Made by a program: the position numbers and the translations under genes
Notes under the pieces: generated by a model
What the model was told of the DNA's origin: nothing
The model's database searches: none
What the model saw: only the letters and a program-made list of their open reading frames with translations
Assembly (NCBI RefSeq): GCF_025642135.1
Contig: NZ_CP106794.1
Coordinates: 244,447 to 308,446, forward strand
Source of the DNA: Streptomyces cynarae
Lineage (GTDB): Bacteria; Actinomycetota; Actinomycetes; Streptomycetales; Streptomycetaceae
Direction of reading: 5' to 3'
DNA: 64,000 bases
Part shown: positions 12,948 to 56,357 of the stretch, in pieces
How positions within the stretch are numbered: the stretch's first letter is position 1
Layout of the letters: each line of letters opens with the position of its first letter

Positions 12948-12984
12948 TACGAGAACCGACCGAGAACCGACGAGGACGACCCGC

Positions 12985-14061
12985 GTGCCGCGCCCTGGTG
13001 AGACCCGCTCGCCCGCCGCCCCGGCCAGGCCGGTGTCGCCGCATGCCGTCGCCCGCTCGTGCGCGACACAGGGCTGGCCTGTGCATCCGCTGGCCCCGGG
13101 CCGCAAGACACCGGCCGCGAACTGCCCGCAGTGCAGGGACCGGAACCATTCAGTGAAGGGGTGTCCGTGCCTTGAGGCAGGGCGGTGGTGCCACAGTTTC
13201 CATGCCGCCACGCTTGACCCGAAGCGCATTGACGCCTGGTGGGCGGCGGAGCCTTCGGCGGGGGTGGGCATCGCCTGCGGACCGGCCAACCTGGTCGTCA
13301 TCGACGTCGACGCCCACCAGGCGTCGGTGCCGGACCGCAGCCGCCTGCTGAGCGGTATCCCGATCCATGACTCGGTGAACCTCGAAGGACTGACCTCTGG
13401 TTTCGACACGCTGGCCCTGCTCGCGGCGCTGCGCCGCCAGCCCGACCCGGTCACGGACAGGGACACGCTGCGCGTGCGCACGCCCTCGGGCGGACTGCAC
13501 ATCTGGTACCGCAACCCCCGCCCGGAGGTGCGCTTCCGCTGCTCCACGGGCTCCGGCAAGGTCGCACTGGCCTGGCAGGTCGACGTCCGCGCCCACGGCG
13601 GCTACATCGTCGCCCCGACCACCCGGACTAAAGACGGCACCTACCAGGCTGAGGAAGGCGCGCGGTTGCCCGCGCCGCTGCCCGGCTGGCTGCACGACGA
13701 ACTCGTGCGCACCGGCCACGTGATGGACCCGCCCCGTTCGGCCCCTGCCCTTCCTGCAGCCCGCCGCCGGGGCAGGAGCCGCCCCAAGGCCGCGGTGCGG
13801 GCGCTGGCTCCGCTGCTGGAGCAGGTCGCGCAATGCGCGGCCGCCCCCGAAGGGACTGGCTTCACCGAGAAACTCAACCGCGCCGCCTACACCGCCGGCG
13901 GCCTGGTCGCGGCAGGCCACCTCGACGAGGCCACTGTTCGCGACCAGCTGCTGCAGGCGGCCAACTGCGCTCGCCCCTGGCAGACCACCCGCAACGAGAA
14001 CATCATCGACACCGCCCTGGCCGCCGGAGCCGTCCGCCCGTTCCGTCTTGAAGGACCCTGA
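12985..14061 (+). CDS. Bifunctional DNA primase/polymerase (prim-pol)
   Basis: A 358-residue archaeo-eukaryotic primase-type protein. The prim-pol domain has the metal-binding 'LVVIDVDAHQ' (about residue 105), 'RVRTPSGGLHIWY' (about 165-172) and 'WQVDVRAHGGYIVAPTT' (about 195). An N-terminal cysteine group 'NCPQCRDRNHSVKGCPC' may bind zinc. A helical C-terminal region follows. GTG 12985 was preferred because GAGGAC precedes it and the prim-pol homology starts soon after; an ATG frame from 12838 would overlap the iterons. With the helicase four bases downstream it forms a primase-helicase replication pair as in plasmids and integrative elements. Confidence 0.85.
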   Translation: MPRPGETRSPAAPARPVSPHAVARSCATQGWPVHPLAPGRKTPAANCPQCRDRNHSVKGCPCLEAGRWCHSFHAATLDPKRIDAWWAAEPSAGVGIACGPANLVVIDVDAHQASVPDRSRLLSGIPIHDSVNLEGLTSGFDTLALLAALRRQPDPVTDRDTLRVRTPSGGLHIWYRNPRPEVRFRCSTGSGKVALAWQVDVRAHGGYIVAPTTRTKDGTYQAEEGARLPAPLPGWLHDELVRTGHVMDPPRSAPALPAARRRGRSRPKAAVRALAPLLEQVAQCAAAPEGTGFTEKLNRAAYTAGGLVAAGHLDEATVRDQLLQAANCARPWQTTRNENIIDTALAAGAVRPFRLEGP

Positions 14062-14065
14062 CCCG

Positions 14066-15613
14066 ATGAGCAGCGCCGAGAGCACGCCGCGGTTTGATCC
14101 CCAGGCCGCCGCTCAGCAGATGCTCGAGCTCGACCTCCCCCCGGGCACCGGGCAGCCTTCCTCCCTGCCTCTGCTGCCCGCACAAGCCACCGCCGCCCCC
14201 ACCGCCGGGACCAGCGTCGGCTGGGCACCGGCCGCACCCCTGCCGCCGTCCCTGAGCGACCGCGGCAACGCCCGCTTGTTCGTCCAGCGCTACCGGGACC
14301 AGTTCCGCCACTGCGAGGGCTTGGGCTGGTTCGTGTGGGACGGCTATCGCTGGAAGCGCACCGGCGGCGAGAAGGCGGCATTGTGGGCGGCCGGAGAGAT
14401 GGCCGAGGACCTCCCCACCCACGACCCTCAAGGCCTCTACACCGACCGCGAGCTGGCCCGCCACAAGCGTCGCACCTTGTCCACCACCGGTATCCAGGCT
14501 CTGCTCACCCAGGCCAAGGCCTCTCCCGACCTGTCCGTGGACCCTGACACCCTCGACGGCGACCCCTACGCCCTGTGCACGCCGGCAGGCGTGGTCCGCC
14601 TCCACACCGGTCAGCTCCAGAAGCCAGACCCCAGCAAGGACTTCCACTCCCGCGCCACCAGCGTCGCTCCCCAGCAGATGGACACGCCTCGCTGGCACCG
14701 CTTCCTGGCCGACACCTTCGGTGACGACGACGCCGGCCGCGAGATGATCGACTTCCTGCACCTGCTCCTCGGCTACTCCATCACCGGAGACGTCGGCGCT
14801 CAGGTGCTGCCCTTCCTCCACGGCGAGGGCAAGAACGGCAAGAGCGCCTTGCTGGATGTCATCCTGCAGATCCTCGGCGACTACGCGGACGCCGCCCCGC
14901 CCGGCTTCCTCATGGATCGCGGCGCCTACTCCGAGCACTCCACAGAACTCACGGAGCTGCACGGTCGCCGCCTGGTGGTGTGCAGCGAACTCAAACCGGA
15001 CGACAAGTGGGACGAAGCGCGTGTCAAAATGCTCACCGGCGGCGACCGGATCAAGGCCCGCCGCATGAGGCAGGACTACTTCTCCTTCACCCCCACCCAC
15101 CACCTGTGGCTCCTCGGCAACCATCGCCCGGAGGTCTCCGTCGGAGGGTTCGCGTTCTGGCGTCGTATCCGGCTTCTGCCGTTCACCCGCACCGTCCCCG
15201 CCGAACGCCGGATCGACAACCTCGCCTTCGAACTGGTCCGCGACGAAGGCCCGGGCATCCTGCAGTGGCTAATCGAAGGCGCCCGCCGCTACCTCGCGAC
15301 CCGCGATCCCCTCGACGGCCCCGATCAGGTACGCCTGGCCACCACCACTTACGCCACCACCGAGGACCACATCGGCCGCTTCCTCGAGGAGCGCTGCACC
15401 CGCGACAGCCATGCCGACCTCCGGGTCGAACAGGGCCTTCTGTATGCCGAATACCAGAACTGGTGCAACACCGAAGAAGGCGTCCGCGCCGCGACACCGC
15501 GCGCCTTCGCCACCCGTGTCCGCTCCGAACTCGGCCTCTCCTCGCCCACCGACATGATCAAGTCCAACGGGCGCAAGTTCTACCCGGGCTTGGCCCTGTT
15601 GGAGGCCGAATGA
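14066..15613 (+). CDS. D5/P4-type superfamily 3 helicase (plasmid/phage primase family)
   Basis: A 515-residue protein. A D5_N-type region ('WFVWDGYRWKRTGGEKAALW') is followed by an SF3 helicase domain with Walker A 'LHGEGKNGKSALLDVI' (about residues 250-265), Walker B-like 'RLVVCSEL' and sensor 'HHLWLLGNHRPEV'. A C-terminal winged-helix-like region ends at 'KFYPGLALLEAE'. It would unwind DNA at the origin and work with the prim-pol encoded just upstream. ATG 14066 follows AAGGACC. Its stop overlaps the next start (ATGA), indicating translational coupling. Confidence 0.9.
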   Translation: MSSAESTPRFDPQAAAQQMLELDLPPGTGQPSSLPLLPAQATAAPTAGTSVGWAPAAPLPPSLSDRGNARLFVQRYRDQFRHCEGLGWFVWDGYRWKRTGGEKAALWAAGEMAEDLPTHDPQGLYTDRELARHKRRTLSTTGIQALLTQAKASPDLSVDPDTLDGDPYALCTPAGVVRLHTGQLQKPDPSKDFHSRATSVAPQQMDTPRWHRFLADTFGDDDAGREMIDFLHLLLGYSITGDVGAQVLPFLHGEGKNGKSALLDVILQILGDYADAAPPGFLMDRGAYSEHSTELTELHGRRLVVCSELKPDDKWDEARVKMLTGGDRIKARRMRQDYFSFTPTHHLWLLGNHRPEVSVGGFAFWRRIRLLPFTRTVPAERRIDNLAFELVRDEGPGILQWLIEGARRYLATRDPLDGPDQVRLATTTYATTEDHIGRFLEERCTRDSHADLRVEQGLLYAEYQNWCNTEEGVRAATPRAFATRVRSELGLSSPTDMIKSNGRKFYPGLALLEAE

Positions 15614-18938: not shown

Positions 18939-20724
18939 TCCTCGGCGTGATGCCCCGCAGGATTGATGACGATCGCAGGCAGGCGGATCAGGCCCGTTGA
19001 CATGGTCATTTGGCGAGCAGGACGCGCTTGCGGAGGAGCTCGAATCCTGCGCGGCCGAACATCTGGCGCTTGAGCATCTTGATCCGGTTGACATGGCCTT
19101 CGACGGCACCGGAGCTCCACGGTTGGGAGAGGCCGGCGACGACGGCGTCAAGGTCGTGTTCGAGGTGGTGGGCGAACCGGTTGAGACTGGGCAGGCCGGT
19201 GGATGCTCTGGCTGATTCGATCCACTCTGGCAGTTGGTCGCCTTGCAGGTCGGTGACCATGTGGGCGAAGGTCCGCACGTGCTTGGCGAGGACGTCCAGT
19301 TCGGGGCAGTTGGCCAGCACGGCCTTGAGCTGGATCTGGTCGCTTTCGACCAGGGCGTCTGGGTGGGTCAGGAGCCAGCGGGTCACGGCGCGGGCCGATG
19401 GCGGCCGGGGTCCGACCGGCTGGGGTTTGCCGCGCAGAGTCCTGCTCACGTAGTTGCGGACGTTGCCGTAGCCGTCCGGGTAGCCCTGCTCTCTGATCTC
19501 CTCCCACAGCTTCCAGGCGTTGGTGCAGCCTTCCTGCCAGCGCAGGTCGAGGTAGGGCTTGTAGGCGTCGAGCTTGGTCGCGCGGCTTTGCCACTGGCCG
19601 GTGAACAGGTCCTCTGGTGTGGCGGCCCGGGAGAAGCGCAGGATCGTGTTGAGTGTCATGCCGAGCTGCCGGGCGACGGACCGCTTGCAGTGGCCGGCCT
19701 TCAGTAGCGCGTGGATGGTGGCGTGCTTGGCGCGGGTGCGTTCGGCGAACCGGTGGCCCGTCGGCCAGGGCGATGACGCGGCCGGCTCCGCCTCCTCCGG
19801 TGGTTCATCAGGCGGTGCTGGTGCGGGGCGCAGGCAACCGCGGTGTCGATAGACGCACTTCTCGGCGGCTTCGCCCAGGTTGTGCCAGAGGTGCCACCGG
19901 TCCGCGATCTGAATGGCCTGTGGGGCGCCACGGGTCGCGCCCTCGGCGAAGAAGGGGGCTCGGTCGCGGCAGACGATCTCGATGCCGGGCCGTTCGGCGA
20001 GCCAGGCCGCCAGCGTGTCCGCCTCCCGGTCCGGCAGGAGATCGATTGGGCGACGTGTCTCGACGTCGACGAGCACAGTTCCGTAGATGCGGCCCTTGCG
20101 CTGGGCGTATTCGTCCACGCCGACCACGCGGGGCTCCGTGACCGGAGGATCGGGCAGCGAGGCGATCAGCCGCAGCAGAGTGTTCCGGCTGACCGGAACC
20201 CCCAACGCGTCCGTCATCCGGGCGCCAGCCCGACCCGCGAGCGCGAGACCGACCGTGACCAACGTGGATCGCAGCCGCTCGGTCCGTCGGCCGAACTGGC
20301 GGGTGAGCCCCGGAACCTGCTCGGCAAAGGTCTTGCGAGGACAGGAGCTCTCCGCACAGACGAACCGCCGAACCCGTAACGACACCACGACGAACTTGCC
20401 CGCCGTCGGCAGATCACGAGGAAACCGCAGATAGGAACCATGTACTCGCCCCGTCCAGCGCCCGCAGCCCGGACAAGCCACCCGCATGGCCGTGCTCCGG
20501 GCCTCGACTTGGACACCCGCGTTGGCCATGTCGACGGACTCCAGGGACACGCCTTGCACTGAGGAGAACAGCAGCTCATGCAGCTGCGGCCGTGCTTCGT
20601 TCACGCCGCAGCACTGTCGACCACGCAGCAGTCCGGCCCGGCGATTTTCGGGCGCTCTCAAGCTCCGTCCCATGAAGACCAACAGTCACGCTCCGTACGC
20701 GACCACAAGAAGTGGACCAGAGCC
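18931..20724 (-). mobile_element. ISL3-family insertion sequence (copy A)
   Basis: An intact ISL3 transposase on the minus strand lies between imperfect terminal repeats: AACTCTGATCC at the left (18931) and, read inward from the right, GGCTCTGGTCC (ending at 20724). No matching 8-bp target duplication is visible, so one flank may have been rearranged after insertion. It truncates a sigma-factor gene. Confidence 0.75.
19006..20604 (-). CDS. ISL3-family transposase, full length
   Basis: 532 residues from GTG 20604 (an upstream ATG frame extends to 20682). The N-terminal zinc ribbon is 'CPGCGRWTGRVHGSYLRF' with 'CAESSCPRKTF'. The catalytic core has 'RVVGVDEYAQRKGRIYGTVL' (first Asp), 'EIVCRDRAPFFAEGA' (second Asp) and 'PWSSGAVEGHVNRIKMLKRQ' (Glu). 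All three acidic residues are present and the C-terminus 'GFELLRKRVLLAK' is complete, so this copy looks functional. Confidence 0.93.
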   Translation of the reverse strand: MNEARPQLHELLFSSVQGVSLESVDMANAGVQVEARSTAMRVACPGCGRWTGRVHGSYLRFPRDLPTAGKFVVVSLRVRRFVCAESSCPRKTFAEQVPGLTRQFGRRTERLRSTLVTVGLALAGRAGARMTDALGVPVSRNTLLRLIASLPDPPVTEPRVVGVDEYAQRKGRIYGTVLVDVETRRPIDLLPDREADTLAAWLAERPGIEIVCRDRAPFFAEGATRGAPQAIQIADRWHLWHNLGEAAEKCVYRHRGCLRPAPAPPDEPPEEAEPAASSPWPTGHRFAERTRAKHATIHALLKAGHCKRSVARQLGMTLNTILRFSRAATPEDLFTGQWQSRATKLDAYKPYLDLRWQEGCTNAWKLWEEIREQGYPDGYGNVRNYVSRTLRGKPQPVGPRPPSARAVTRWLLTHPDALVESDQIQLKAVLANCPELDVLAKHVRTFAHMVTDLQGDQLPEWIESARASTGLPSLNRFAHHLEHDLDAVVAGLSQPWSSGAVEGHVNRIKMLKRQMFGRAGFELLRKRVLLAK

Positions 20725-28781: not shown

Positions 28782-30032
28782 TCAGGTGCGGGTGACCGTG
28801 CCGCACACGTCGGGACGGTTCGGGTCGAGGTTCTTGCTGCGGTCGTAAGGGTCTGTAGCCGGGCCGGTCGCCGGCGCTCCGCTCGCAGCGTCCGTGGTGA
28901 ACTGCGGATGGAAGAAGCCGTCGTAGATCTCGCAGGCGCTGTTCGCGATGTCCTCGTCGTAGCTGATCACACCCAACTTGCCGGGTGTGACCTCGTATTT
29001 CGTCGGATCGAGCAGCTGCGTGTCCAGCACGCGACGCACGATGGTCCGTTGCACCTCCGTGGAACCACCCCCGGCCTGGGCGACGGGATAGACGAAGGTG
29101 TAGTCGGCGTGCACCATGACGGAGGCGCCCTCGCCCCGTTTGAAGGTCATACGGCCGCGGACCTTGACCACATCGCCGACGAGCCGGAGTTCGTGCGGGT
29201 CGAACCGGCTGAACATCGTCAGGGGGTCGTGGCGCTTGTCCGGCTTGCGCAGCGCGGTGTCCAGCAGGTCGAGCAGATCGGTCTGGTGCGGGTCGATCAC
29301 GTCCAGCGCCGCCTGCGGACGCTCGCCGCGCAGGGTGCGGGGATCCACGTTCGCCGCCACGAGGAGTTGCTTGGTCTCCTTCAGCGCGAAAGCGACCTGT
29401 GCCCTGCTCAGGGTGCCCACCGGGGTTGCATTCGGCAGCACGATGGCGTCGGCTCCGTCCGCCCACCCCTCGGCGGGCGAGCCCGCGAAGGGCCGCTTCA
29501 GCGTCGGCACGCTGGGCTCCCTGGCGGACGGGGCCGTGGTGGGCCGGGTCGTCTCCGGCGGCAGGGGAGTGGGCACTGAATCCGCGTCGCCGGAAGACGC
29601 GAACCGGTCTCCCAGCCCGTCGGGCAGATGGGACAGCGCCCAACCCGGATGGACCGCGATGACGGCCACGGCCACCGCGACGACTACACCGACCGCGCTG
29701 AGCATCCGGCGTCGCCGCCCAGCCCGCCCGTCCAGCTCACGCCATGCCGAACCGGTCCGCCAGCCTTCCGGCTGCCCTGGCTGAACGGCCGCGCCGGCCC
29801 CACCCTTCTTCCGGAACCGCCTCTTGCGCCCGCCCTGCTGAGCCGTGGCCCGCGCGTCCTGTTCCCGCAGCCGCGCGGTGACCATGCGGGCGCGGGCCGA
29901 GGGCTCCTTCGGCGCGGTGGACCGTATCTCACTCTCGTGGTCCCGGAGGAACTTCTCCCACATCTCGTCGGGTACCGACGATTCCTCCCCGTCCTTCGCC
30001 GGTCTGCCGTCGTCCGGCCCCTTGGTGCCCAT
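28782..30032 (-). CDS. Membrane-anchored protein with large extracytoplasmic domain
   Basis: 416 residues. A charged cytoplasmic N-terminus ('VPDEMWEKFLRDHESEIRST') precedes one membrane helix, 'MLSAVGVVVAVAVAVIAVHP' (about residues 110-129). A Ser/Thr/Pro linker leads to an outer domain of about 250 residues with 'LSRAQVAFALKETKQLLVAA', 'LTMFSRFDPHELRLVGDVVK' and 'IYDGFFHPQFTTDA'. Homologous proteins are common in streptomycetes and uncharacterised. No peptidase or binding motif is recognised. Confidence 0.7.
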   Translation of the reverse strand: MGTKGPDDGRPAKDGEESSVPDEMWEKFLRDHESEIRSTAPKEPSARARMVTARLREQDARATAQQGGRKRRFRKKGGAGAAVQPGQPEGWRTGSAWRELDGRAGRRRRMLSAVGVVVAVAVAVIAVHPGWALSHLPDGLGDRFASSGDADSVPTPLPPETTRPTTAPSAREPSVPTLKRPFAGSPAEGWADGADAIVLPNATPVGTLSRAQVAFALKETKQLLVAANVDPRTLRGERPQAALDVIDPHQTDLLDLLDTALRKPDKRHDPLTMFSRFDPHELRLVGDVVKVRGRMTFKRGEGASVMVHADYTFVYPVAQAGGGSTEVQRTIVRRVLDTQLLDPTKYEVTPGKLGVISYDEDIANSACEIYDGFFHPQFTTDAASGAPATGPATDPYDRSKNLDPNRPDVCGTVTRT

Positions 30033-31867: not shown

Positions 31868-32554
31868 TCAAGATGTGATCTCCGGTGTTCCGGGAGAGAG
31901 CTGGTCGCCGTGCAATGTCCAGGTGGTCACTGCGGTGCCGGTGGCGCAGCAGGTCATGTCCGTGGCGCGGTACCAGTTCTCGTGGACGATCACGGAGCCG
32001 TGCTGTATTTGCACGCCGGCCAGGAGGGTGACGTGGACGTCCGGCGCCTGCTCCTGGGGAGTGATGCTTCCGAGGGCGACGAGACGGCCGTGCCGGGAGG
32101 CGAGGATCACGGCCCCGAAGCCGAGCTGGCCGTCGGCGGTTCCGCCGTTGTTGTCGCATTCGACCTCCAAGGCGGCCTCGGGCCGCCCGTCGCCGTCGAT
32201 GTCGCCGTAGGTGACTTCCTGCATGCTCCCCAGGTGGACCCGGCCGAACCGACGGGATGTGGCCATGGCTTCCCCGGCCTGGAGCGCGATCACTGCGGGG
32301 ATTGCACAGAAGTCGCCGGGTACGTGGACGGAGGCCCAGTCCAGTTGGTGAAGGTCTGCGGGCGCGGAGCCCAGATCGGCGGGGTGTGGCGCGGTGGTTG
32401 CTGATTGCGTCATGGAGGGAGGGGCGATGCCGGGGGGTGTGGTCTGCGACTGGGTGATCGGGGGGCCCACCGAGGGAGCGCACCCGGCGACCGCCAGTGT
32501 CAGGCAGACGAGAGGAGTCAGTAAGCGGCTCGGACGGGGCAGGGACGTCCACAC
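31868..32554 (-). CDS. Lipoprotein with FG-GAP-like motif
   Basis: 228 residues from GTG 32554 (AAGGAG upstream). The signal peptide ends in a lipobox, 'SRLLTPLVCLTLAVAGCAPS'. The mature part contains 'QEVTYGDIDGDGRPEAALEV', a calcium-binding, FG-GAP/VCBS-like D.DGD loop, and 'HVTLLAGVQIQHGSVIVHEN'. It is anchored outside the membrane. It starts 71 bases after the TIR-WD40 gene on the same strand and is probably the last gene of that operon. Function unknown; an envelope sensor or ligand-binding subunit is inference. Confidence 0.75.
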   Translation of the reverse strand: MWTSLPRPSRLLTPLVCLTLAVAGCAPSVGPPITQSQTTPPGIAPPSMTQSATTAPHPADLGSAPADLHQLDWASVHVPGDFCAIPAVIALQAGEAMATSRRFGRVHLGSMQEVTYGDIDGDGRPEAALEVECDNNGGTADGQLGFGAVILASRHGRLVALGSITPQEQAPDVHVTLLAGVQIQHGSVIVHENWYRATDMTCCATGTAVTTWTLHGDQLSPGTPEITS

Positions 32555-32625
32555 GGGCGCTCCTTCGTACGGGGGCGATGGCAGAGCTCTCACGCGCATG
32601 GCCCGCCGGCGGCGCACAGTTCCGG

Positions 32626-35427
32626 TCATGACGCGCAAGGCGGGTCGTACGTCATCTGCGGTAGGTACTGCTTCCACTGGTCGGGGGTGATGTGGGGGGA
32701 CTGGGCGCACAGCCGTCGCAGGATGTTCGGTGCCTGGGCGTCCCATACCTGTACCTCGGTGGCGGTTTCGGCGGCCAGTTTTTCGCCGTTGGGGCTGAAC
32801 GCCAGCAGGGCCGGGTCGAATGCCCCGCCGACCTGGAGGCTCGCCAGCACAGCCGGGTGTGAGGGATCGCTCATGTCCCACAGCAGCAGGTTCCCGTCCT
32901 CTCCCGCACTTGCCGCGAGGGGAGCCTGCGGGTCGTAGGCGAGTCCTCCTATGCTGCCGACATGGCTGATGGGCGAGGCCAGTTGTCTGGGATGTGCCAC
33001 ATCATGCACGTCCCAGGTGGTCAGCGCGCCTGCCGAACTGCCCGCGAGGAGGGTGCGCCCGTCGCTGGTGAAGGCAACGACGTCTTCGTTGCCATGGGCG
33101 GCCTTGATGGTCGCCCGCTGCACGGGCCGGGATGGTGTCGCGATGTCCCAGAGCTGGATCTTTCCGGCGTGGTCGACCGATGCCAGGGCCTTGCCGTCAG
33201 GGCGGAACGCCACGTCGTTGCCCTTTGATCGGGAGTCGTTCAGTTTGGAGAGTTGAACCGGTTTGCCCCGGTTGCGCACGTCCCACAACTGCACTTCGTC
33301 CGCGCCGACTGCCAGCAGGGAGCCCGCCGGGGCGAAAACCACCGATGAGGCACCGGTGACCGCCTGGCCGCCGGGGACGAGCGGGCGGGGGTGCGCTCGG
33401 TCCCGCACGTCCCACAGCGCCACGGACGCCCCGGCCGCCAGGGTGTCTGCGTTGGGGCTGAAGGCGACGGCGTTGCCGCCCTGTCCGAATGAGGGCACGG
33501 TCGACAAGACTGTCGGCGCTCCGCCGGTGGTGTCCCACAGCCTGGTCGGGTAGCCGGCCGCCAGGGTGGCGCCGGTGCGGTCGAACGCCGGGACCGTCCC
33601 CGTGCCGCCGGACAGTTCCCACTGGGCGGCGGAGCGCGAGGCCCCGTCGATGTTCCACAGCCGCACCGTGCCGGGCTGCCCGGACACGCCGTCGGTGCCG
33701 AGTGCCGCGCCGTCCGTGCTAGCCGAGGCCAGCGTCCTGTCGTCACGGCTGAACGCCAGTTGCGCTATACCGGATGAGTGGCCGGTCAGCTGGGATCCCG
33801 GGACCGGGTGGAGCGGGTCGGAGACCTGCCACAGCTGGATGGTGCCGTCGTCGGCGCCGACGCCGAGCGTGGATCCGCTGTGTGAGAAGGCGACCGCGCT
33901 GATGCCCAGACGCTGGCCGTTCATGATGGAGTCCTGCCGGGCATCCTTCGGCTGGGTGACGTCCCACAGCCGGACGGTGTCGTCCCTGCCGCCGACGGCG
34001 AGCAGGTGTCCGTCTGGACTGAACGCCAGCGTTTGGCCGGAGCCTTGCACCTGCTCGCGCAGCGTCGGCCGGTCCGGCTGGGATACATCCCACAACTGCA
34101 CGATGTTGTCCCCGCCGGCTGCCAGCAGACGCCCGTCCGGGCTGATCGCCAGCCCATCGGAGAGCCCGGTCGTGGGGGATCCGGTGAACGTGGCGGCAAG
34201 CCGGAGGGTGTTCGGTCCTCCGATGTCGAAGATGAGGACCTGTCCTCCGTCGATCCCTACGGCCAGATGCCGGGAGTCCGGGGTGAACGCCGTGTTGTCC
34301 ACGATGGCGCCATGGGCCTCGGCGGAGGCGAGCAGCCGTGGACGGGTCGGGGAGGTCACGTCGAAGAGCCGGATGTATCCCTCCTGATCGCCCACGGCGA
34401 GCATGCGGTCGTCGTCACTGAGTGAGAGGCCCTGGGCGTATCCGTGCTGCCCGGTCAGATGCGCGAGGACCGCTAAGCGGCCGGGGTCGTACAGGGTCAC
34501 GCCGGAGTTCCCGGCGATGGCGATCAGGTTGCGGTGGGGGCTGTAGGCGACGCCACGGGCCAGGCCGCCGACGGAGACCACCCTGGGGATGGCAGCGCTG
34601 GACAGGAGCGCGCCCAACACTCCGCCGTGGGGGTCGAGCCGATAGGCCTCGACGAGCAGTTGGCGTGCGAGGTCGGGTTGGGTGTCCTGCAGGTTCTGTG
34701 CGTCGGCGATGAGTTGGCGGGAGGTCGCCTGGTACTGCCGTGCGATGGCGGTGCTGCGCTGCTGCAGCGCGATGATGCCGCCGGAGGCGGCCAGCACCAG
34801 AAGCACGGTCAGTGTGGCCAGGGTGCCGCGGACCCAGCGCTTCGTGCGGCGGCGCTGCCGCACGTGCTCGCCGATCAGTTCGTCTTTGCTCATTCCGCGG
34901 ATCGGTGCGACAAAGTCGGCGGCGCACTCGATCATCCGCGGATCGGCTCGGTTGGCTTGCTCTGGTGTGTGGAGCCAACTCAGGTCCACCCAGCGTGGCT
35001 GGTGACGGAAGACGCCTTCCAGTTCCTCGCGTGGCAGGGCATTGGTCCGGTTCCAGTCGAAGTCGGCGGCGTCTTCGTCCCAGAGCAGTGTCCCGTCGGT
35101 TAAGGCGATGAGGATGGTGTCCGGGCTTCGGTGGGTGAGCCACCACCGGATCTCCTTGCGTACCCAGAAGGACCCGGCCGCGGCAGGCGATGCCATGACG
35201 ACGAGCCACTGCGACTGGCTGAGTGCCCTCTCGATATCGGGCCACAGTCCCGGACTGGCAGTGAGGTTGGTGACGTCGCGGAAGGTACGCAGCATCCGCC
35301 AGCGATACCAGGGACGGGCCATCGACTGAAGCTCGGACTGGAAAGCCGTCGCCACCGCGTTGTCCCACGAGTGGCTGTAGGAGATGAACGCGTCATAGTG
35401 CGGCGCGGCGTCGGAGCTGTCCGTCAC
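32626..35427 (-). CDS. TIR domain - transmembrane - WD40 repeat protein
   Basis: 933 residues. An N-terminal TIR domain (about 10-150) begins 'YDAFISYSHSWDNAVATAFQ' and includes 'SFWVRKEIRWWL'; Glu92 occupies the position of the catalytic glutamate of TIR NADases. One membrane helix follows, 'GTLATLTVLLVLAASGGIIA' (201-220), then a coiled stretch and 12-14 WD40 blades to the end (e.g. 'AFSPDGHLLAVGGRDDTVRL'). The predicted layout is a cytosolic TIR with the propeller on the other side of the membrane, or a reversed topology. Its GTG start overlaps the stop of the upstream gene (GTGA). TIR domains cleave NAD or make cyclic ADP-ribose signals in bacterial immunity; the propeller is probably a sensor or scaffold. 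Confidence 0.93.
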   Translation of the reverse strand: MTDSSDAAPHYDAFISYSHSWDNAVATAFQSELQSMARPWYRWRMLRTFRDVTNLTASPGLWPDIERALSQSQWLVVMASPAAAGSFWVRKEIRWWLTHRSPDTILIALTDGTLLWDEDAADFDWNRTNALPREELEGVFRHQPRWVDLSWLHTPEQANRADPRMIECAADFVAPIRGMSKDELIGEHVRQRRRTKRWVRGTLATLTVLLVLAASGGIIALQQRSTAIARQYQATSRQLIADAQNLQDTQPDLARQLLVEAYRLDPHGGVLGALLSSAAIPRVVSVGGLARGVAYSPHRNLIAIAGNSGVTLYDPGRLAVLAHLTGQHGYAQGLSLSDDDRMLAVGDQEGYIRLFDVTSPTRPRLLASAEAHGAIVDNTAFTPDSRHLAVGIDGGQVLIFDIGGPNTLRLAATFTGSPTTGLSDGLAISPDGRLLAAGGDNIVQLWDVSQPDRPTLREQVQGSGQTLAFSPDGHLLAVGGRDDTVRLWDVTQPKDARQDSIMNGQRLGISAVAFSHSGSTLGVGADDGTIQLWQVSDPLHPVPGSQLTGHSSGIAQLAFSRDDRTLASASTDGAALGTDGVSGQPGTVRLWNIDGASRSAAQWELSGGTGTVPAFDRTGATLAAGYPTRLWDTTGGAPTVLSTVPSFGQGGNAVAFSPNADTLAAGASVALWDVRDRAHPRPLVPGGQAVTGASSVVFAPAGSLLAVGADEVQLWDVRNRGKPVQLSKLNDSRSKGNDVAFRPDGKALASVDHAGKIQLWDIATPSRPVQRATIKAAHGNEDVVAFTSDGRTLLAGSSAGALTTWDVHDVAHPRQLASPISHVGSIGGLAYDPQAPLAASAGEDGNLLLWDMSDPSHPAVLASLQVGGAFDPALLAFSPNGEKLAAETATEVQVWDAQAPNILRRLCAQSPHITPDQWKQYLPQMTYDPPCAS

Positions 35428-36188
35428 GGCCTTCCGGCTCCTCCCCCTGGCCCGCGAGCGGCGCCACCGGAGACATCGAACCCCGCCGTCGCTCTGATGA
35501 TGTCCGCCGCATCACGTACACCAGCGAGACGGGCGAAGCTATGGGCGTAGCCGGCCAGATGGCGCTGCACCGCGCGGAGCTCGGTCCGGCAGGTGCCGCA
35601 CTGCGGCCAGAGCGATTCCGGCTGGCCTGGGTGTTCCTCCTCGTAGACCCGCAGCCTGGGATGCCAGGCCGATAAGAAGGGCCGCAGCTCCCGGTTGAGC
35701 ATCGCGATGGCCAACTGCTCGACGGTGTGCCCGCCGGATACAGCGATCGAGGGCCTGCTGGCCTTGAGGGTGTCGCGCGTGGTGGCGAACAGACCGTACA
35801 GCGAGGTGAGGGCCTCACGGATGAGACCGTCACCGTCCGCGAGTGGCTGGGTGGAGACACGGGTGACAGTCTCGACGAACAAGTGCCATGCCACCTGACG
35901 CGCATCATCGTTCACGACGAAGGTGAACTCGCTCAACTGCGGGACTGTGACCTTCACTTCCGAAAGCCGTGCCGTGCTGCGGTAGAAGTCGAGGACAAGG
36001 AGCACAAGTGCCCCGGCGAGGCCGCCGACGACCGCGTAGAGTACCCGGCCGGACATGCGGGTCACAGCGAAGACGACGAGGCCGACGAGGGAGCCGGCGA
36101 TGACAGCGGCTGCGCATCGCACCGACCGGGCGGACGCCCAGTACCGTACTGCTCGCCCTTCGACCACTACACCCCCCGGTGTGATCAT
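35424..36188 (-). CDS. Two-TM protein coupled to TIR-WD40 gene
   Basis: 254 residues. Two N-terminal membrane helices, 'CAAAVIAGSLVGLVVFAVTR' (about 25-44) and 'VLYAVVGGLAGALVLLVLDF' (about 49-68), are followed by a soluble domain of about 180 residues with 'VAWHLFVETVTRVSTQPLAD', 'LREALTSLYGLFATTRDTL'-like helices, 'NRELRPFLSAWHPRLRVYEE' and 'LRAVQRHLAGYAHSFARLAG'. I do not recognise the soluble domain. The stop overlaps the TIR start by four bases, so the two proteins are probably made in fixed ratio and interact. It lies 54 bases downstream of the NUDIX gene. Confidence 0.75.
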   Translation of the reverse strand: MITPGGVVVEGRAVRYWASARSVRCAAAVIAGSLVGLVVFAVTRMSGRVLYAVVGGLAGALVLLVLDFYRSTARLSEVKVTVPQLSEFTFVVNDDARQVAWHLFVETVTRVSTQPLADGDGLIREALTSLYGLFATTRDTLKASRPSIAVSGGHTVEQLAIAMLNRELRPFLSAWHPRLRVYEEEHPGQPESLWPQCGTCRTELRAVQRHLAGYAHSFARLAGVRDAADIIRATAGFDVSGGAARGPGGGAGRP

Positions 36189-36242
36189 TCTCCCTACAGC
36201 GGGGCCAATCTATGCCCGTACGGGTCCTGTCATGGGGTGATT

Positions 36243-36812
36243 TCAGTCTTTCGATACCGTTCGGTGACCGGCCGTTCCCTCAACCGCGATGGCCAGGACG
36301 AGCGCGGCGCTCACGGCGCAGGCGATACGCCCGTCCCGCGCGGCCGAGACGACCTCAGGCAGCGGTACGTGATGCACCTTCAGGTCGGCCTCGCCCGGGT
36401 CGCCGCCCTGCGGCCGGCCGGCGCTCAGCCCCGCCGCCGACCACAGGTGAACGCGGAGAGGGCTGAGGCCGGGCAGCGGATGGAGGGCGCCGTGCGACGT
36501 CCAGCATCCGCCGTGGTACCCCGTCTCCTCGCGCAGCTCCCGCTCGGCGGCTGCCCGCGGGCCGAGGTCTTCCGGGGCGACGTCACCTCCCGGGAGTTGC
36601 CATGTCATCCCAATGAGGTAGTGGTACTGCTCCACCACGAGAAGGCAGCTCTCGACGAGCGCGGCGACCCGGACGAGGTCCGGCGCCTCCACCCAGTCGT
36701 AGGTGTCGGCCTGCCCGTCCGGACGAGTGACACGGTCCCGCCTTACCGATAGGTGCGGTGTCTCGCACAGCACATGTCCGCCGTGCCGCCTCCACGATCC
36801 CCTGCGTTCCAT
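36243..36812 (-). CDS. NUDIX hydrolase, ADP-ribose pyrophosphatase-like
   Basis: 189 residues. The NUDIX box is present as 'LPGGDVAPEDLGPRAAAERE' followed by 'LREETGY'; it has one extra residue compared with the classic spacing, but the REL.EE metal-binding core is intact. The N-terminal part 'HLSVRRDRVTRPDGQADTYD' and 'CLLVVEQYHYLIGMTWQLPG' resemble ADP-ribose or nucleotide-sugar pyrophosphatases. It is co-directional with and just upstream of the two-TM/TIR-WD40/lipoprotein genes. Since TIR enzymes release ADP-ribose-type products, a role in clearing or shaping that signal is attractive but inferred. Confidence 0.85.
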   Translation of the reverse strand: MERRGSWRRHGGHVLCETPHLSVRRDRVTRPDGQADTYDWVEAPDLVRVAALVESCLLVVEQYHYLIGMTWQLPGGDVAPEDLGPRAAAERELREETGYHGGCWTSHGALHPLPGLSPLRVHLWSAAGLSAGRPQGGDPGEADLKVHHVPLPEVVSAARDGRIACAVSAALVLAIAVEGTAGHRTVSKD

Positions 36813-37230: not shown

Positions 37231-37781
37231 TGCGTGCTGCTGGGCGTGCGCTGGGCAGCGTGTCTTCGTACGGTTTTCAGTGCCCGGCTCGGACAGGACG
37301 GCAGGGCTTGGCGGTCCCGTGCCCGGTCGCACGTTGCATGGGACCGCCCCCTGAGGAGTAACTGGCCGCGGCAGGGTGGGGTGCCCCTGTCGTCCCTCCT
37401 TCCCGATGGCCCCGTGGCGGTCAGGCGAGCCGGCTGGCGGTCAGTGCCTCCTGGGCTGCGCCCTGCTGCCCTTCGTCGTGAGCATCCCGACGCACGGCGG
37501 CCACCATGGCGCCTCCCGAAGCGCTGGGCGCTGTTGCGTGCAGAGGTCGGATGGTGCGAGCGGTGCGGTAAATCCCTGCAGGTGTTGGCTTTGTTCACGA
37601 AGTTCGGGTCCTGGCACAGATCTTGGGGAGTGGTCGCGGAGTGTTACCTCGATGTTCGATTGCGAGGGGACATTTCGCGTGAGACCGCGTACGCCTTGTC
37701 GTCCGACGGTTGAATGTGACGCAACCTCAGATGCCTGCTGGCGGCTGCTGTTGTCGGCTGTGGACAGTGATGGTGCTGGTC

Positions 37782-39374
37782 ATGCAGACCGATGCACCGT
37801 TTTGGGAGTCGCTGGTCTTCGATGGGATCGACGATGTGGATGTCGAGGCGGTTACGGCTGCATTCGGCACGGTCGAGGTGGTGGCGAGAGGTCGCGCGGC
37901 CGGGGCTGTATGTCCGACCTGCGGCCGCTTCTCGGATCGAGTCCACGACCGCTATCTGCGCAGGCTGAGAGACCTTCCGCTCGCTGACCAGGGCCTTCTG
38001 ATCCGGCTGACGGTCCGGCGCTTCATCTGTGGGTCGGCGGACTGCCCGCGTCGGACGTTCGCCGAGCCGTTCTCGCGGCTGGCCGCCCCGCACGCACGGT
38101 TCACCACTCGGCTCAACCACGTCCTGGCGCGAGTGGGGCTCGCGCTGGCCGGACGGGCCGGTGCTCGGCTGGCTGCCGAGCTGAACTTCGGCGCGGGAAG
38201 GATGACCTTGTTACGCAGGGTCATGGCATTGCCCGATCCACGGTTCAGCACGCCGCGTGTGCTGGGCGTGGACGACTTCGCGATCCGTCGCGGCCAGACC
38301 TACTCAACCGTCTTGACCAGCGTCGAAGACCATCGCGTTGTCGATGTGCTCCCGACTCGCGAAGCCGGGCCGCTGGCTGCCTGGCTGATGCGTCACCCCG
38401 GCGTGGAGATCATCTGCCGGGACCGCGCCAGCGCCTACGCCGAAGGTGCCCGCCGCGGTGCCCCCGATGCTCTGCAGGTCGCCGACCGGTTCCATCTGTG
38501 GCAGGGCCTCGGCCGAGCCGTGGAGACCTGCGTCGCCGCCCACCGCGACTGCCTGCGCAGTCCCTCGCCCAGCGGCCTGCTACTGGAGGCCACCGGACTG
38601 CTTTCAGGACGGCCGCAGGACGACTCGGCGCCCGTCGGCCGGCGGGCCGAGCGGAAGAAGGCAGCGCACGCACTGGTCCACGAGCTGCTTGCCCAAGGCC
38701 ATTCACGCCGGGCGATTGCCCGGCACCTGGGCTGGGGCCTCAACACCGTGCTCCGGTATGCAAACGCCGCACGCTGGCAGGACACCATCCGCGACAACCG
38801 GCCCCGACCCAGCAGGCTGGACCCCTACAAGCCCTACCTGGAGCGTCGATTCGCCGCAGGATGCACCAGCGTCACCCTCCTCCACAACGAACTCGTTGCC
38901 GTCAACGCGCCCGTCACCTACCAGATGGTCCGCGCCCACATCGCCACCCTCCGCGAGTCTCCGGTCGGCACACCGCACCGGCCTCCGACGGTACCCCAGG
39001 TGACAGGCTGGCTCACCCGACACCCCACCGCGCTGAGCGAGGACGACCGTGCCGGTCTGAAGGAGGTCCTGGCCCGCTGCCCCGAACTGGACATGGCCGC
39101 CGGGCATGTCCGCGACTTTGGCGAGATACTCACGGGTCGCCTCGGCTCCAGGCTCCCTGCCTGGATCGACGCAGTCGATGCCAGCCAACTGCCCGGCCTC
39201 ACCGGCTTCGCACTCCACCTGCTCCGGGACCTCTACGCCGTGATAGCCGGCCTCACCTTGGACTGGAGTTCCGGCAGCATCGAAGGCGCCGTGAACCGCA
39301 TCAAGAAGATCAAGAGGCAGCTCTACGGGCGAGCCGGATTCGAACTACTCCGCAAGATGATCCTTCTTCAATAG
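37782..39374 (+). CDS. ISL3-family transposase
   Basis: 530 residues from ATG 37782 (ATG 37770 and 37710 are in frame). The zinc ribbon is 'CPTCGRFSDRVHDRYLRRL' with 'CGSADCPRRTF'. The catalytic core has 'VLGVDDFAIRRGQTYSTVL' (Asp), 'EIICRDRASAYAEGARRGAP' (Asp) and 'LDWSSGSIEGAVNRIKKIKR' (Glu). A helix-turn-helix, 'HSRRAIARHLGWGLNTVLRY', lies in the insertion. It is uninterrupted and ends 'GFELLRKMILLQ', so it is probably active. Confidence 0.93.
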   Translation: MQTDAPFWESLVFDGIDDVDVEAVTAAFGTVEVVARGRAAGAVCPTCGRFSDRVHDRYLRRLRDLPLADQGLLIRLTVRRFICGSADCPRRTFAEPFSRLAAPHARFTTRLNHVLARVGLALAGRAGARLAAELNFGAGRMTLLRRVMALPDPRFSTPRVLGVDDFAIRRGQTYSTVLTSVEDHRVVDVLPTREAGPLAAWLMRHPGVEIICRDRASAYAEGARRGAPDALQVADRFHLWQGLGRAVETCVAAHRDCLRSPSPSGLLLEATGLLSGRPQDDSAPVGRRAERKKAAHALVHELLAQGHSRRAIARHLGWGLNTVLRYANAARWQDTIRDNRPRPSRLDPYKPYLERRFAAGCTSVTLLHNELVAVNAPVTYQMVRAHIATLRESPVGTPHRPPTVPQVTGWLTRHPTALSEDDRAGLKEVLARCPELDMAAGHVRDFGEILTGRLGSRLPAWIDAVDASQLPGLTGFALHLLRDLYAVIAGLTLDWSSGSIEGAVNRIKKIKRQLYGRAGFELLRKMILLQ

Positions 39375-41885: not shown

Positions 41886-43486
41886 GTGGAAGAGGTCACG
41901 CTCCGGCTGAAGGAGTTGTTGTTCCCGTCGATCGCGGACGTCGCGGTGCTGTCGGTGGACGTGAACATCGAGATAGTGCGCGTTGACGCGCACTGCATCG
42001 CGAACGGCGCCCCGTGCCCGGTCTGCGGCGTCTGGTCGAACCAGGTTCATGGTTCCTACCTGCGGTTTCCCGCTGATGTGCCGAGCGGTGGCCGAAGCGT
42101 TGTTCTCCAGCTGAGGGTCCGTCGGTTTACCTGCGGGAACTCGGGCTGCGCACGCCGTACCTTCGTCGAGCAGATACCCGGCTTGACACGCCGACACGGT
42201 CAGCGGACCGAGCGGTTGCGCTCCACCCTGGCCGCGGTCGGCCTGGCCCTCGCGGGCCGGGCCGGAGCCCGCATGCCCGCGTTCTCGGGGTGTCCGTCAG
42301 CCGCAGCACGGTGCTCCGGCTGGTCGATGCGTTGCCCGAACCCGAGGCCCCCGCGCCGCGGGTGGTCGGCGTCGACGAGTACGCCACCCGCAAGGGCCGC
42401 CACTACGGCACCGTCCTCGTCGACATCGAGACCCGCCGTCCCGTCGACCTGCTGCCGGACCGGGAGGCGTCCAGTCTCGCGGCCTGGCTCGCCGAACGGC
42501 CGGGCATTGAAGTCGTCTGCCGCGACCGTGCGCCGTTCTTCGCCGAAGGCGCCTCCGCCGGCGCCCCGCAGGCCGTCCAGGTCGCGGACCGGTGGCACCT
42601 CTGGCACAACCTGAGCGAGGCCGCCGAACGGACCGTCGCCCAGCACCGCCGCTGCCTGCGGGCCCTTATCCCAGCCACCCTCGAACCCGAGCCTGAGCCC
42701 GCCCCGCAAGAAGAAGAACCGCCCGGTTCACCATGGCCGACCGGACACCGGTTCGCCGACCGGACCAGGTCCCGGCACGCCGCCGTTCACGCACTCCTGG
42801 AGGCAGGACACAGCCGGCGCTCGGTCCAGCGGCAGCTCGGCATGGCCTGGCACACCGTCAAACGGTGCGCCGACGCCGCGAAGCCGGAGGACCTGTTCAC
42901 CGGCCAGTGGCAGAACCGGGCCTCGGTCCTCGATGACTACAAGCCCTATCTGGACGACCGCTGGAACGAGGGCTTCACCAACGCATGGAAGCTGTGGGAG
43001 GAGATCGTGCCGCTCGGCTACAAGGGCAGCTACCAGCGCGTCCGCGCCTACCTGCACAAGAAGCGCACCTCACCGCGACCGTTGACCGCCCGGCCGCCGT
43101 CGCCCCGAACGGTCTCCGGATGGATCCTCAGACGCCCGGAAACCCTCACCGAGCCCGAACAACTCCAGCTCAAGACCGTCCGCACCCAGTGCCCCGAACT
43201 CGACGCACTCACCCGACACGTCCGGTCCTTCGCGGTCATGCTCACCGACCGCCAAGGCGAGCGTCTCCCGAACTGGCTCGACGCCGTCCGACAGGACGAC
43301 CTGCCCAGCCTCCACACCCTCGCCGCCGGCATCTACCGCGACCTCGACGCCGTCACCGCCGGACTCACTCTGTCCTGGAGTTCAGGTGCGGTCGAAGGTC
43401 ATGTCAACCGGATCAAGATGCTCAAGCGCCAGATGTTCGGGCGGGCAGGCTTCCAACTTCTCCGCAAGCGCGTCCTACTGGCGTGA
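41886..43486 (+). pseudogene. ISL3-family transposase, frameshifted
   Basis: GTG 41886 starts a normal N-terminus ('CPVCGVWSNQVHGSYLRFPA' zinc ribbon with 'CGNSGCARRTF'). Near 42282 one base seems lost: the frame should continue 'GVSVSRSTVLRLVDALPEPE', which is found in the next frame to 43486. That part has all catalytic blocks: 'VVGVDEYATRKGRHYGTVLV', 'EVVCRDRAPFFAEGA' and 'SWSSGAVEGHVNRIKMLKRQ'. It is close in sequence to copy A. Without frameshifting no active enzyme is made, though copy A could act in trans only if it recognises the different ends. Confidence 0.88.
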
Positions 43487-51980: not shown

Positions 51981-52034
51981 ACGTAAGCTTGATCGGCCTT
52001 TCACCGCAGGTCAGGGCCGTGTGGCGTGGTCTCC

Positions 52035-54089
52035 ATGATGGATATCCAGCTGATCACCGCCGGGCAGATGTACCGCTACTACCTGCGCCAGGTCATCGTC
52101 GGCGACGGCCGCCGACCGGCCCGCACGCCACTCGCTCAGGCCCAACAGGAGGCCGGGGTCCCGGCCGGGCGATGGATGGGTAGGGGCCTTGCCGTCCTCG
52201 GTCTGCAGGCGGGCGACGTCGTCACCGAAGCGCAGCTGCGGAACCTCTTGGGCGAGGGCCGGCACCCGTACGCCGACCGGATCGAGGCCGACAAGCTCGC
52301 CGCGGGGAAGAAGCCTGCGGCCGCGCGCCGGGCCGGGGCACTCGGTCGGCGTGTGAAGGTCACCGGGTTCGATCTGGTCTTCCGCCCACAGCCCACCCTC
52401 ACCCTGCTGTGGGCGCTGGGGGATGAGGAGACCCGCACGGCGATCGAGGCCGCGCACGAGCGGGCGATTGCCGCCGTGCTCGCCTGGATCGAGGACGAGG
52501 CCGCGATCCTTCGCTTCGGCGCGAAGGGGATCTATCAGAACCGCCCGGTGCATGGTCTGGTCGCCGCGCGGTTCCGCCACTATGAGGCGCGCTCCGGGAT
52601 GCCGCTCCTGCATGACCATCTCCTTCTGTCCGTCAAAGCCCAGCGCCCGCACAAGGACAGGAACGGGCAGGGCATCTGGGGCTCGGTGCACTCCGAGGTC
52701 CTGTACGAGAACGCGGTGGCCGCCTCCGCGCTCTACAACGAAGTCGTGATGGCTGAGGCGTGCGAGGCGTTGGTGCTGGCTTCCGAGCCGCGCACCGTCA
52801 CCGCCGGCCGCCGACCGGTCATGGACGTCGCCGGTGTGCCGTACGAGCTGATCCGCTGGACGTCCCGGCGCAGCGACCAGATCGCCGCCTGCCGGGCAGA
52901 GCTGGAGCACGAGTACGTCACCGCCGTCGACGACGACGGCACCCCGCGGTTCCTGCCCGTGGTCTCCGAGCGGGCCCGCGCCAAGCTGAACCGGATCGCC
53001 GCGAAGATGACGCGCCCGCCGAAGCAGAAGGCCCGGACCCTTGCCAAGCTGCGCGAGGAGTGGAAGGAGAGCGCGATCCTCACTTCTGGTGTCGCCGCCG
53101 ACGTCATCAACTCCCTTCTCGAGCACGCCCGTGCCGCAGCGGCGGCGATCCGGGCCCGGGTCGCCGCCGTGGTCGACATAGCGCTGGCGGCCGTCGACGT
53201 CGCCGCGACGGTGTTCGTGATGAACAGCGGCGGCCGGTTCCACCGCCGGCACCTGCTCGCCGAGGCCCGCCGTCACCTCGCTTTCGTCCTGCGTGGCCGC
53301 CGCCGTGAGCCGGGCCTGGACGAGCAAATCGTGGACGCCGCGCTCGCCACGTACTGCGTGGACATCAGCGAGCCGAAGACGCTGCGCGGTCTGCTACCGG
53401 CCTACCGCCTCTACACCGCCCGCTGGTCGCTGGCCGACCTCGAACCCGCCCGGCGTCCGCTGACCACCGCCCCGGACCGGCAGCCCCCGGCCAGCCCGGG
53501 CACACCGGCCGCGTCCCGGCCTTCGGACCTGGAGCCGGGGGAGTGGGAGATACCCCGCGTCCCGTTGCAGTACGAGCGGGCCGTCCTCGCCGGCGCGGTG
53601 GTCCGCGAGAAGCTGCGCACCGCCGTCACCGCCGCGCGGGGCCGGGCGTATGACGTCGTCGCGCACCAGCAGGCGGCGATGCCCGAGCAGCTGCTCGCGC
53701 CCCCGGCCGCCGACTCCGAGCGCGACGACCAGGAGCCGGAGCCCGGGCGCCGGGAGGTGATCGACCTGACGGCGCTGCGGGCCTTGAGGAGGTCCCGCAC
53801 GGACGTGGAAGCCCTCGATCTGACGGCCGAGCGGCTGCGCCACCTCCAGGACGCGTTCACCAAGGTGGCCAACGACTCCCGCGCCCGTGCGGACCGCTAC
53901 GTCGAACAGGACGATGCCTACCCAGTGCACCCGGTACGCCAGGACGACCAGCAGGCGCACCGCCCGCAGGAGCCCGGACCGCACCGCGGCCGGGGAGGCC
54001 GGCCACTGAGCGCACCCGACGCCGCGGGGTGCGCACCGACGATGCCCGGCGAGCGAAGCCTGCAGGCAGGTAAACGGAGTCGGGTGTGA
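52035..54089 (+). CDS. MobF (TrwC-type) conjugative relaxase
   Basis: 684 residues from ATG 52035 (GTG 52026 and ATG 52038 also in frame). The N-terminal relaxase domain has the tyrosine cluster 'TAGQMYRYYLRQVIVGDGRR' and the three-histidine metal site 'ARFRHYEARSGMPLLHDHLL' (about residues 180-197). 'GFDLVFRPQPTLTLLWALGD' is also typical. It would nick oriT and lead the strand into the recipient. The C-terminal half is rich in Arg and Ala and lacks a recognisable helicase Walker A, so it is shorter than TrwC/TraI. No other transfer gene is visible nearby. Confidence 0.88.
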   Translation: MMDIQLITAGQMYRYYLRQVIVGDGRRPARTPLAQAQQEAGVPAGRWMGRGLAVLGLQAGDVVTEAQLRNLLGEGRHPYADRIEADKLAAGKKPAAARRAGALGRRVKVTGFDLVFRPQPTLTLLWALGDEETRTAIEAAHERAIAAVLAWIEDEAAILRFGAKGIYQNRPVHGLVAARFRHYEARSGMPLLHDHLLLSVKAQRPHKDRNGQGIWGSVHSEVLYENAVAASALYNEVVMAEACEALVLASEPRTVTAGRRPVMDVAGVPYELIRWTSRRSDQIAACRAELEHEYVTAVDDDGTPRFLPVVSERARAKLNRIAAKMTRPPKQKARTLAKLREEWKESAILTSGVAADVINSLLEHARAAAAAIRARVAAVVDIALAAVDVAATVFVMNSGGRFHRRHLLAEARRHLAFVLRGRRREPGLDEQIVDAALATYCVDISEPKTLRGLLPAYRLYTARWSLADLEPARRPLTTAPDRQPPASPGTPAASRPSDLEPGEWEIPRVPLQYERAVLAGAVVREKLRTAVTAARGRAYDVVAHQQAAMPEQLLAPPAADSERDDQEPEPGRREVIDLTALRALRRSRTDVEALDLTAERLRHLQDAFTKVANDSRARADRYVEQDDAYPVHPVRQDDQQAHRPQEPGPHRGRGGRPLSAPDAAGCAPTMPGERSLQAGKRSRV

Positions 54090-56268: not shown

Positions 56269-56357
56269 CCGGAGCGCTTCTGCACGGGCGGGAGGGCGAT
56301 CGTACGGTCCCGGCACCTGGCAACAGACGACGTCCTACCCGCGTGAGGGGAGCTGAC

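Follow-up and report, generated by a model that had tools for sequence, protein, structure and literature searches.

Thoeris systems pair a TIR protein (ThsB) with an effector (ThsA), and their types, together with the products of TIR domains, are described in the available parts of PMC12847820 and PMC13232231. The latter source, as far as available, also describes phage NARP1 enzymes that rebuild NAD+ from ADP-ribose (ADPR). Nudix proteins are presented as ADPr hydrolases in biological conflict in accessible portions of PMC9503650 and PMC7159879, and TIR-STAND/effector-associated-domain conflict systems are outlined in those of Kaur (2020, 2021). The gene set described here is not named in the available sections of PMC7159879, PMC8195603, PMC9503650, PMC10907252, PMC12265719, PMC10853773, PMC12847820 or PMC13232231. 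No description of it was found among titles and the opening parts of abstracts; a TIR survey by Yirmiya (2025) and a study by Wang (2024) of TIR systems in E. coli, cited in PMC13232231 and PMC12847820 respectively, also bear on the subject, and priority is uncertain. No literature was found under the names TIR-WD40, WD40-TIR or TIR-WD.

The window, which is the whole stretch of DNA analysed here, occupies the final 64 kb of a contig of 308,446 bases in a genome of 9.36 Mb and two contigs. It carries genes for a NUDIX hydrolase, a two-TM protein (TM2), a TIR-TM-WD40 protein and a lipoprotein. Like Thoeris, this locus has a TIR gene with an adjoining partner gene; the two-TM partner recalls type II, and at seven loci with TM2 relatives the TIR partner matches ThsB_TIR best. 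In contrast to Thoeris, TM2 has no SIR2, SLOG, macro or caspase match, the TIR domain of the window is fused to a TM helix and WD40 repeats, and NUDIX and lipoprotein genes are added.

The four genes and their products

The genes follow one another on the minus strand in the order NUDIX, TM2, TIR-TM-WD40 and lipoprotein. The preliminary description had proposed four co-directional genes with short gaps, and the coordinates (Table 1) confirm both the common direction and the spacing: 54 bases between NUDIX and TM2, a 4-base GTGA overlap between TM2 and TIR, and 71 bases between TIR and lipoprotein. Upstream of TM2 (TAGGGAGA), TIR (GGAGG) and the lipoprotein gene (GAAGGAG) there are letters resembling a Shine-Dalgarno site, none being clear before the NUDIX start. 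A scan for sigma-70 promoters gave no match, and there are two terminator-like sites, about as many as shuffled sequence yields. Because Streptantibioticus rubrisoli (locus L003) carries these four genes in this order, the grouping is not due to chance.

Table 1. Positions in the window of the four genes and of features predicted in their products
Feature	Position	Strand	Basis
NUDIX hydrolase, ADP-ribose/ADP-sugar pyrophosphatase-like, 189 aa	36243..36812	-	Pfam NUDIX, 38.7 bits; PDB matches
Nudix box core REXXEE, residues 91-98; Pro 16 residues past last Gly	36519..36542	-	
TM2, two-TM protein with unnamed four-helix domain, 254 aa	35424..36188	-	homologues; AF2 model
TM2, two hydrophobic helices, residues 20-71	35976..36131	-	hydropathy; model
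TM2, four-helix bundle, residues 94-222	35523..35909	-	model
TM2, conserved motif RPFLSxWHP, residues 169-177	35658..35684	-	alignment
TIR-TM-WD40 protein, 933 aa	32626..35427	-	Pfam TIR_2, WD40
TIR domain, about residues 10-130	35038..35400	-	TIR_2, 30.9 bits
TIR catalytic-type Glu92	35152..35154	-	alignment with plant TIR Glu
TIR-TM-WD40, single TM helix, residues 200-223	34759..34830	-	hydropathy
WD40 repeats, about residues 286-933	32629..34572	-	Pfam WD40 models
Lipoprotein, predicted all-beta, 228 aa, GTG start	31868..32554	-	lipobox; family alignment
Lipobox VAGC of lipoprotein	32480..32491	-	Cys kept in alignment

The TIR_2 match of the TIR-TM-WD40 protein exceeds the Pfam cut-off of 28 bits, and many WD40 models also match (25 of the 45 matching Pfam families were listed). 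Together with the hydrophobic helix (hydropathy 2.34), these matches substantiate the proposed joining of a TIR domain to a membrane helix and a WD40 propeller. Net charge around the helix is +5 before and +3 after; from this weak bias we infer the sides of the membrane, which would place the WD40 repeats outside the cell. In weak PDB matches (E 0.18-0.32) the FWVRKEI Glu falls opposite the Glu of plant TIR domains of the L6 type, a residue that we take to be catalytic in L6. Of 54 aligned TIR rows, 47 extend through this column and all 47 have Glu in it; the other 7 have a gap there. These alignments agree with the earlier claim of a catalytic-type Glu in the TIR domain.

Besides its Pfam match, the NUDIX protein finds ADPR pyrophosphatases as its best PDB matches (best E 2.8e-14). 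Like such enzymes (e.g. PDB 1mk1), it has the core REXXEE and, counting 16 residues on from the final Gly of the Nudix box, a Pro that we take to be a mark of ADPRases. Both the Nudix core and the nearest characterised relatives fit a predicted hydrolase of the ADPR type. It differs from the known pyrophosphatases in forming a distinct subfamily tied to TM2 genes, with a predicted substrate. The likeness to ADPR pyrophosphatases and the Pro strengthen the suggestion, made at the outset, that a TIR NADase and a NUDIX could serve as source and sink of an ADPR-type signal.

Hydropathy and a structural model agree on the two hydrophobic helices of TM2. In the AF2 model (mean pLDDT 80.9) the chain starts with two long helices, passes through a beta hairpin into four helices and ends in a short one. 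A protein search found 385 relatives; the named ones among the 120 listed are hypothetical or uncharacterized proteins, two of them labelled as uncharacterized membrane proteins, and the named organisms are mostly Streptomyces. The window copy has no Pfam match at E ≤ 0.1, including SIR2, SLOG, macro and caspase effector domains. When 43 relatives were scanned, no Pfam family was matched repeatedly with a good score among the 25 of 30 families listed, of which the best (E 0.00052) was a transporter-type family in one member; SIR2-SLOG, macro and caspase domains were absent from these 25 at E ≤ 0.5, and the other five families are single-member matches. For 16 diverse members, PADLOC and PHROGs together gave six single-member matches at E 0.019 or weaker (the PADLOC "2TM" match, in one of the 16, being at E 0.019) and NCBIfam gave none. 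Models for SLATT or other known 2TM conflict effectors do not appear among the Pfam or NCBIfam matches listed for TM2 relatives, and a PDB profile search with the 43 sequences returned nothing up to E 10. For the soluble domain of TM2, Pfam, NCBIfam, PHROGs, PADLOC and PDB thus offer no convincing match, and the earlier portrayal of a two-TM partner with an unrecognised soluble domain holds.

Fold searches with the TM2 model found generic four-helix bundles only, and Foldseek gave no match at E ≤ 0.001. An HEPN-like RNase was considered, an R-x6-H motif being present, and was dropped in view of these two results and of the lack of an outstanding VIA row among the families listed there. Residues invariant over the 43 sequences include R110, R138, P170, W175 and H176, of which P170, W175 and H176 are also invariant across 16 more diverse rows; R169 is conserved like R110, R138, W175 and H176. 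As the locus scan described below was queried with ETxTRxSTQ and RPFLSxWHP, the conservation of both motifs is partly selected. Many TM2 proteins consist of a soluble domain of about 165 aa, and in the window protein this domain is probably cytoplasmic.

TM2 genes and their TIR neighbours

A genome scan for TM2 loci, from which the best 80 of 93 stretches were taken, yielded 79 distinct loci. Of these, 66 have a TIR ORF no more than 3 kb from TM2, and in 62 the distance is at most 1.5 kb. There were 75 TIR ORFs in the 446,593 bases within 3 kb of TM2 versus 3 in the 654,381 bases beyond 5 kb, a comparison that may slightly favour the near side since TM2 loci supplied nine of the ten TIR seeds. 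No TIR was detected within 3 kb in 13 loci (L005, L007, L026, L027, L032, L035, L048, L050, L051, L058, L074, L075 and L081), some of which are at contig ends or on short contigs; four of them (L005, L007, L032 and L075) retain a NUDIX gene. All four TM2 loci found in IMG/VR adjoin a TIR_2 or ThsB_TIR gene. Seven plasmid records matched, three of them from one species, and of the five examined, four have a TIR neighbour by annotation or Pfam (H1, H4, H5 and H7) and H6 has none. The INPHARED phage set yielded no TM2 relative.

The two domains also occur in one polypeptide. At six loci a TIR protein ends in the TM2 domain, with a probable ATPase between the two; the one such fusion that was scanned matches AAA_22 and NB-ARC, both under their cut-offs. 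A search with the fused TM2 domain, which covered proteins of about 380-1200 aa among the 7997 candidates sharing most words, gave 94 proteins including the query, and 86 of these have a Pfam TIR match. Four of the eight others were inspected: three (P0164, P0187 and P0194) carry a tandem pair of TM2 domains preceded by hydrophobic helices, and the fourth is an apparent ATPase-TM2 piece. In several of the six fusion loci, the TM2 domain is present in both the TIR-ATPase fusion and its neighbour, which is a likeness to TIR-STAND/effector-associated-domain systems; in contrast, the TIR-WD40 protein of the window has no TM2 domain. TM2 differs from effector-associated domains in its lack of a convincing match in the Pfam copy used, which may contain only some of the models for such domains.

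Other TM2 partners seen with Pfam are TIR-SLOG_cluster2 (L042), TIR-GUN4 (L043), TIR-TPR (L082) and WD40-TIR (L069) proteins. ThsB_TIR-type proteins occur beside distant TM2 genes: in L028, L038, L045, L106, L109, L114 and L116 the TIR partner matches this Pfam model best, and in L038 and L045 TM2 has two predicted TM helices. A neighbour cluster (c24, in L026, L031, L033 and L063) adjoins TM2, and its L031 member is SLOG_cluster2 by Pfam.

TM2 and TIR partners tend to share a compartment. Among the 66 pairs, 21 are both membrane proteins, 30 are both soluble and 15 are mixed (Fisher p 8.8e-6, with related loci treated as independent). The mixed pairs comprise 11 with a membrane TM2 and a soluble TIR and four of the reverse kind; several resemble broken TIR genes, cut contigs or mis-set starts and were kept in the count. 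When the association was examined from the other side, with TIR-WD40 proteins like that of the window (200 genomes, E ≤ 1e-20), TM2 was within about 3 kb at six of ten sites. The remaining four (G133:C223, G133:C110, which is cut by a contig end, G154 and G070) indicate that TIR-WD40 can exist without TM2.

Counting all forms and the window's own genome, the TM2 domain is found in 23 of 200 genomes of the family and two of 296 of the phylum; in the second genome of the phylum sample, a ThsB_TIR gene adjoins TM2. By record title, TM2 loci belong to Actinomycetota, Cyanobacteriota, Planctomycetota, Verrucomicrobiota and Myxococcota, and plasmid matches add Pseudomonadota. The TM2-TIR combination ranges from Streptomyces to cyanobacteria, myxobacteria and marine proteobacteria, plus mobile elements, and TM2 represents a testable TIR partner domain that the family libraries searched have missed.

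NUDIX and lipoprotein genes near TM2

In 8 of the 79 loci no more than 225 bases separate NUDIX from TM2, and two further loci have a NUDIX match at 4.3 and 9.5 kb. In the 200-genome family sample, 19 genomes have a NUDIX match at E ≤ 1e-20. Three of these matches (own, G035 and G118) cover nearly the full length, are at least 58% identical and each have a TM2 gene within about 3 kb; a fourth (G172) is a fragment of 69 residues close to a lipoprotein homologue, with TM2 absent. The other 15 genomes have a NUDIX of 37-44% identity, and none of the 15 is among the 23 genomes with TM2, a control that is weak because only about 1.7 TM2 genomes would be expected among them by chance. In a sample of 391 genomes of the order (E ≤ 1e-35), there are five matches besides the window's NUDIX; like the latter, four adjoin TM2, and the remaining one (G416) is too near a contig end (268 bases) to be judged. 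The close subfamily is within about 3 kb of TM2 at seven of seven testable full-length sites (own, G035, G118, G498, G299, G219 and G337). These samples overlap the locus scan (G035 is L003, G498 is L007, G299 is L047 and G337 is L032). There are about 12 distinct NUDIX-TM2 loci, in four layouts, with NUDIX before TM2, after it, divergent from it or across a TIR gene. At L083 (about 3490-4565), a NUDIX fragment and a lipoprotein homologue occur with no TIR-WD40 or TM2 match, which is likely a decayed cassette.

The tail gene had been described as a lipoprotein with an FG-GAP-like loop. The first part stood: the product has a hydrophobic signal and a lipobox-type Cys, as expected of a predicted lipoprotein, and this Cys is kept in 12 of the 12 family rows that reach the N-terminus (14 rows in all), along with further Cys residues. 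The second part fared less well, as the GDxDGDGR loop is only partly conserved and the protein has no FG-GAP model match, nor any Pfam match at E ≤ 0.1; its structural model has no Foldseek match at E ≤ 0.001. A protein search gave five matches, one being the window's own, and two of these probably share contigs (of 10,367 and 6,911 bases) with two TM2 relatives. The lipoprotein profile matches 8 of the 79 TM2 loci, one a remnant (L022). The gene comes after TIR-WD40 in L003, L011, L014, L018, L021, L036 and L073, and also follows TIR-WD40 in L101, where no TM2 was found. A family of mostly 156 aa (c9) is found beside TIR-WD40 in L008 (9096-9563), L018, L019, L021, L041 and L047, and by look in L098; its L008 member has no Pfam match, and the family may be a soluble counterpart of the lipoprotein.

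NUDIX and lipoprotein are recurring minority accessories of TIR and TM2. The preliminary description had treated all four genes as one system, to be judged by a survey of neighbouring genes. The TIR/TM2 pair came through this survey (66 of 79 loci), and the other two genes recur but are present in only 8 of 79 each. These counts, with the six of ten TIR-WD40 sites that have TM2, mark the four-gene set as one form of a wider TIR+TM2 arrangement.

Possible roles and mobile surroundings

The association of TIR with an unnamed helical partner suggests a little-known NAD-based switch in immunity or stress. The reading that we tentatively prefer is a membrane-bound, mobile TIR immune or stress module, the core of which would be a predicted TIR NADase and TM2, with TM2 regulating or adapting the TIR. 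The WD40 propeller and the lipoprotein, outside the cell membrane, would sense disturbance of the envelope such as phage attack, and TM2, anchored beside the TIR, would restrain it or gate its assembly. Once released, the TIR would consume NAD+ and yield ADPR products, and the cytosolic NUDIX, which we infer to be an ADPR remover, would convert ADPR to AMP and ribose 5-phosphate. With ADPR cleared in this way, leaks would fail to trigger the module, and the spent product would not be rebuilt into NAD+. A regulatory role for TM2 is suggested by three features: its soluble minimal forms, its C-terminal position in fusions and its anchoring, which matches that of the TIR. The locus also offers a natural case of a TIR and an ADPR-type hydrolase travelling together, in which product removal in TIR signalling is directly testable.

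The chief alternative, possible if on the unlikely side, is a Thoeris-like pair, in which the TIR would make an ADPR-type signal and TM2 would be the effector, binding this signal through its Arg/His/Trp-rich helical domain. In two-TM forms, binding would lead to membrane disruption, as for the TM-macro ThsA of type II Thoeris, an effector described in the available part of PMC12847820. The ThsB-type partners at seven TM2 loci, the two-TM forms in L038 and L045, and the conserved R110, R138, R169, W175 and H176 all point to an effector. However, many TM2 proteins are soluble and of about 165 aa, and the C-terminal position of the domain in TIR-ATPase fusions better fits an adaptor or sensor.

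The module may have a broader meaning, although we consider this unlikely: TM2 would define an unrecognised, cross-phylum class of TIR immunity, the actinobacterial branch of which would be a bacterial Toll-like receptor with an anti-counter-defence NUDIX. The WD40 repeats and the lipoprotein would then form a sensor outside, with the TIR inside held by TM2, and the dedicated NUDIX would destroy ADPR, such that phages with NAD+-rebuilding enzymes of the NARP1 type could not recycle the TIR product. Animal Toll-like receptors are likewise membrane proteins with the TIR and the sensor-type domain on opposite sides, as is probable here; the window protein differs in its N-terminal TIR and in having WD40 in place of LRR, and the likeness is one of analogy only.

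A non-immune role in envelope or developmental signalling of filamentous bacteria, in which WD40 and the lipoprotein would act as the receptor and NAD or ADPR would carry the message, would suit the receptor-like architecture and the many organisms found that, judged by their names, are presumably filamentous. We regard it as quite unlikely, as TM2 is patchily distributed (23 of 200 family and 2 of 296 phylum genomes) and occurs on plasmids, on IMG/VR contigs and beside transposase or integrase-like genes. It is very unlikely that NUDIX and lipoprotein are bystanders of a TIR+TM2 pair functional alone, as their low frequency (8 of 79 loci each) might imply, since NUDIX stays by TM2 in about 12 distinct loci of four layouts and, as a point weak by itself given the 1.7 expected by chance, none of the 15 genomes with a NUDIX of 37-44% identity holds TM2.

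In the window, an ISL3 transposase adjoins the cassette; related loci include some on plasmids or IMG/VR contigs and one (L082) that, by look, neighbours an integrase-like gene. Around the cassette, transposases of the ISL3 family or what remains of them are at 37710-39374 and, by look, at 42290-43486 and 19006-20682; for 37710-39374 and for the stretch at 41.8-43.5 kb, DNA identity to many Streptomyces plasmids is approximately 80-91%. Elsewhere in the window are genes for a TrwC relaxase (52026-54089) and for a Prim-Pol and a D5-type helicase (12838-15613); the contig may contain, or itself be, a plasmid-like element. A Mu-type transposase is encoded at 56265-57797, and a similar-looking gene is found near a NUDIX-TM2 pair in another Streptomyces (L099, 3882-5417). 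The gene at 28782-30032 encodes a membrane protein resembling the SCO2583 family, with a match under the family cut-off.
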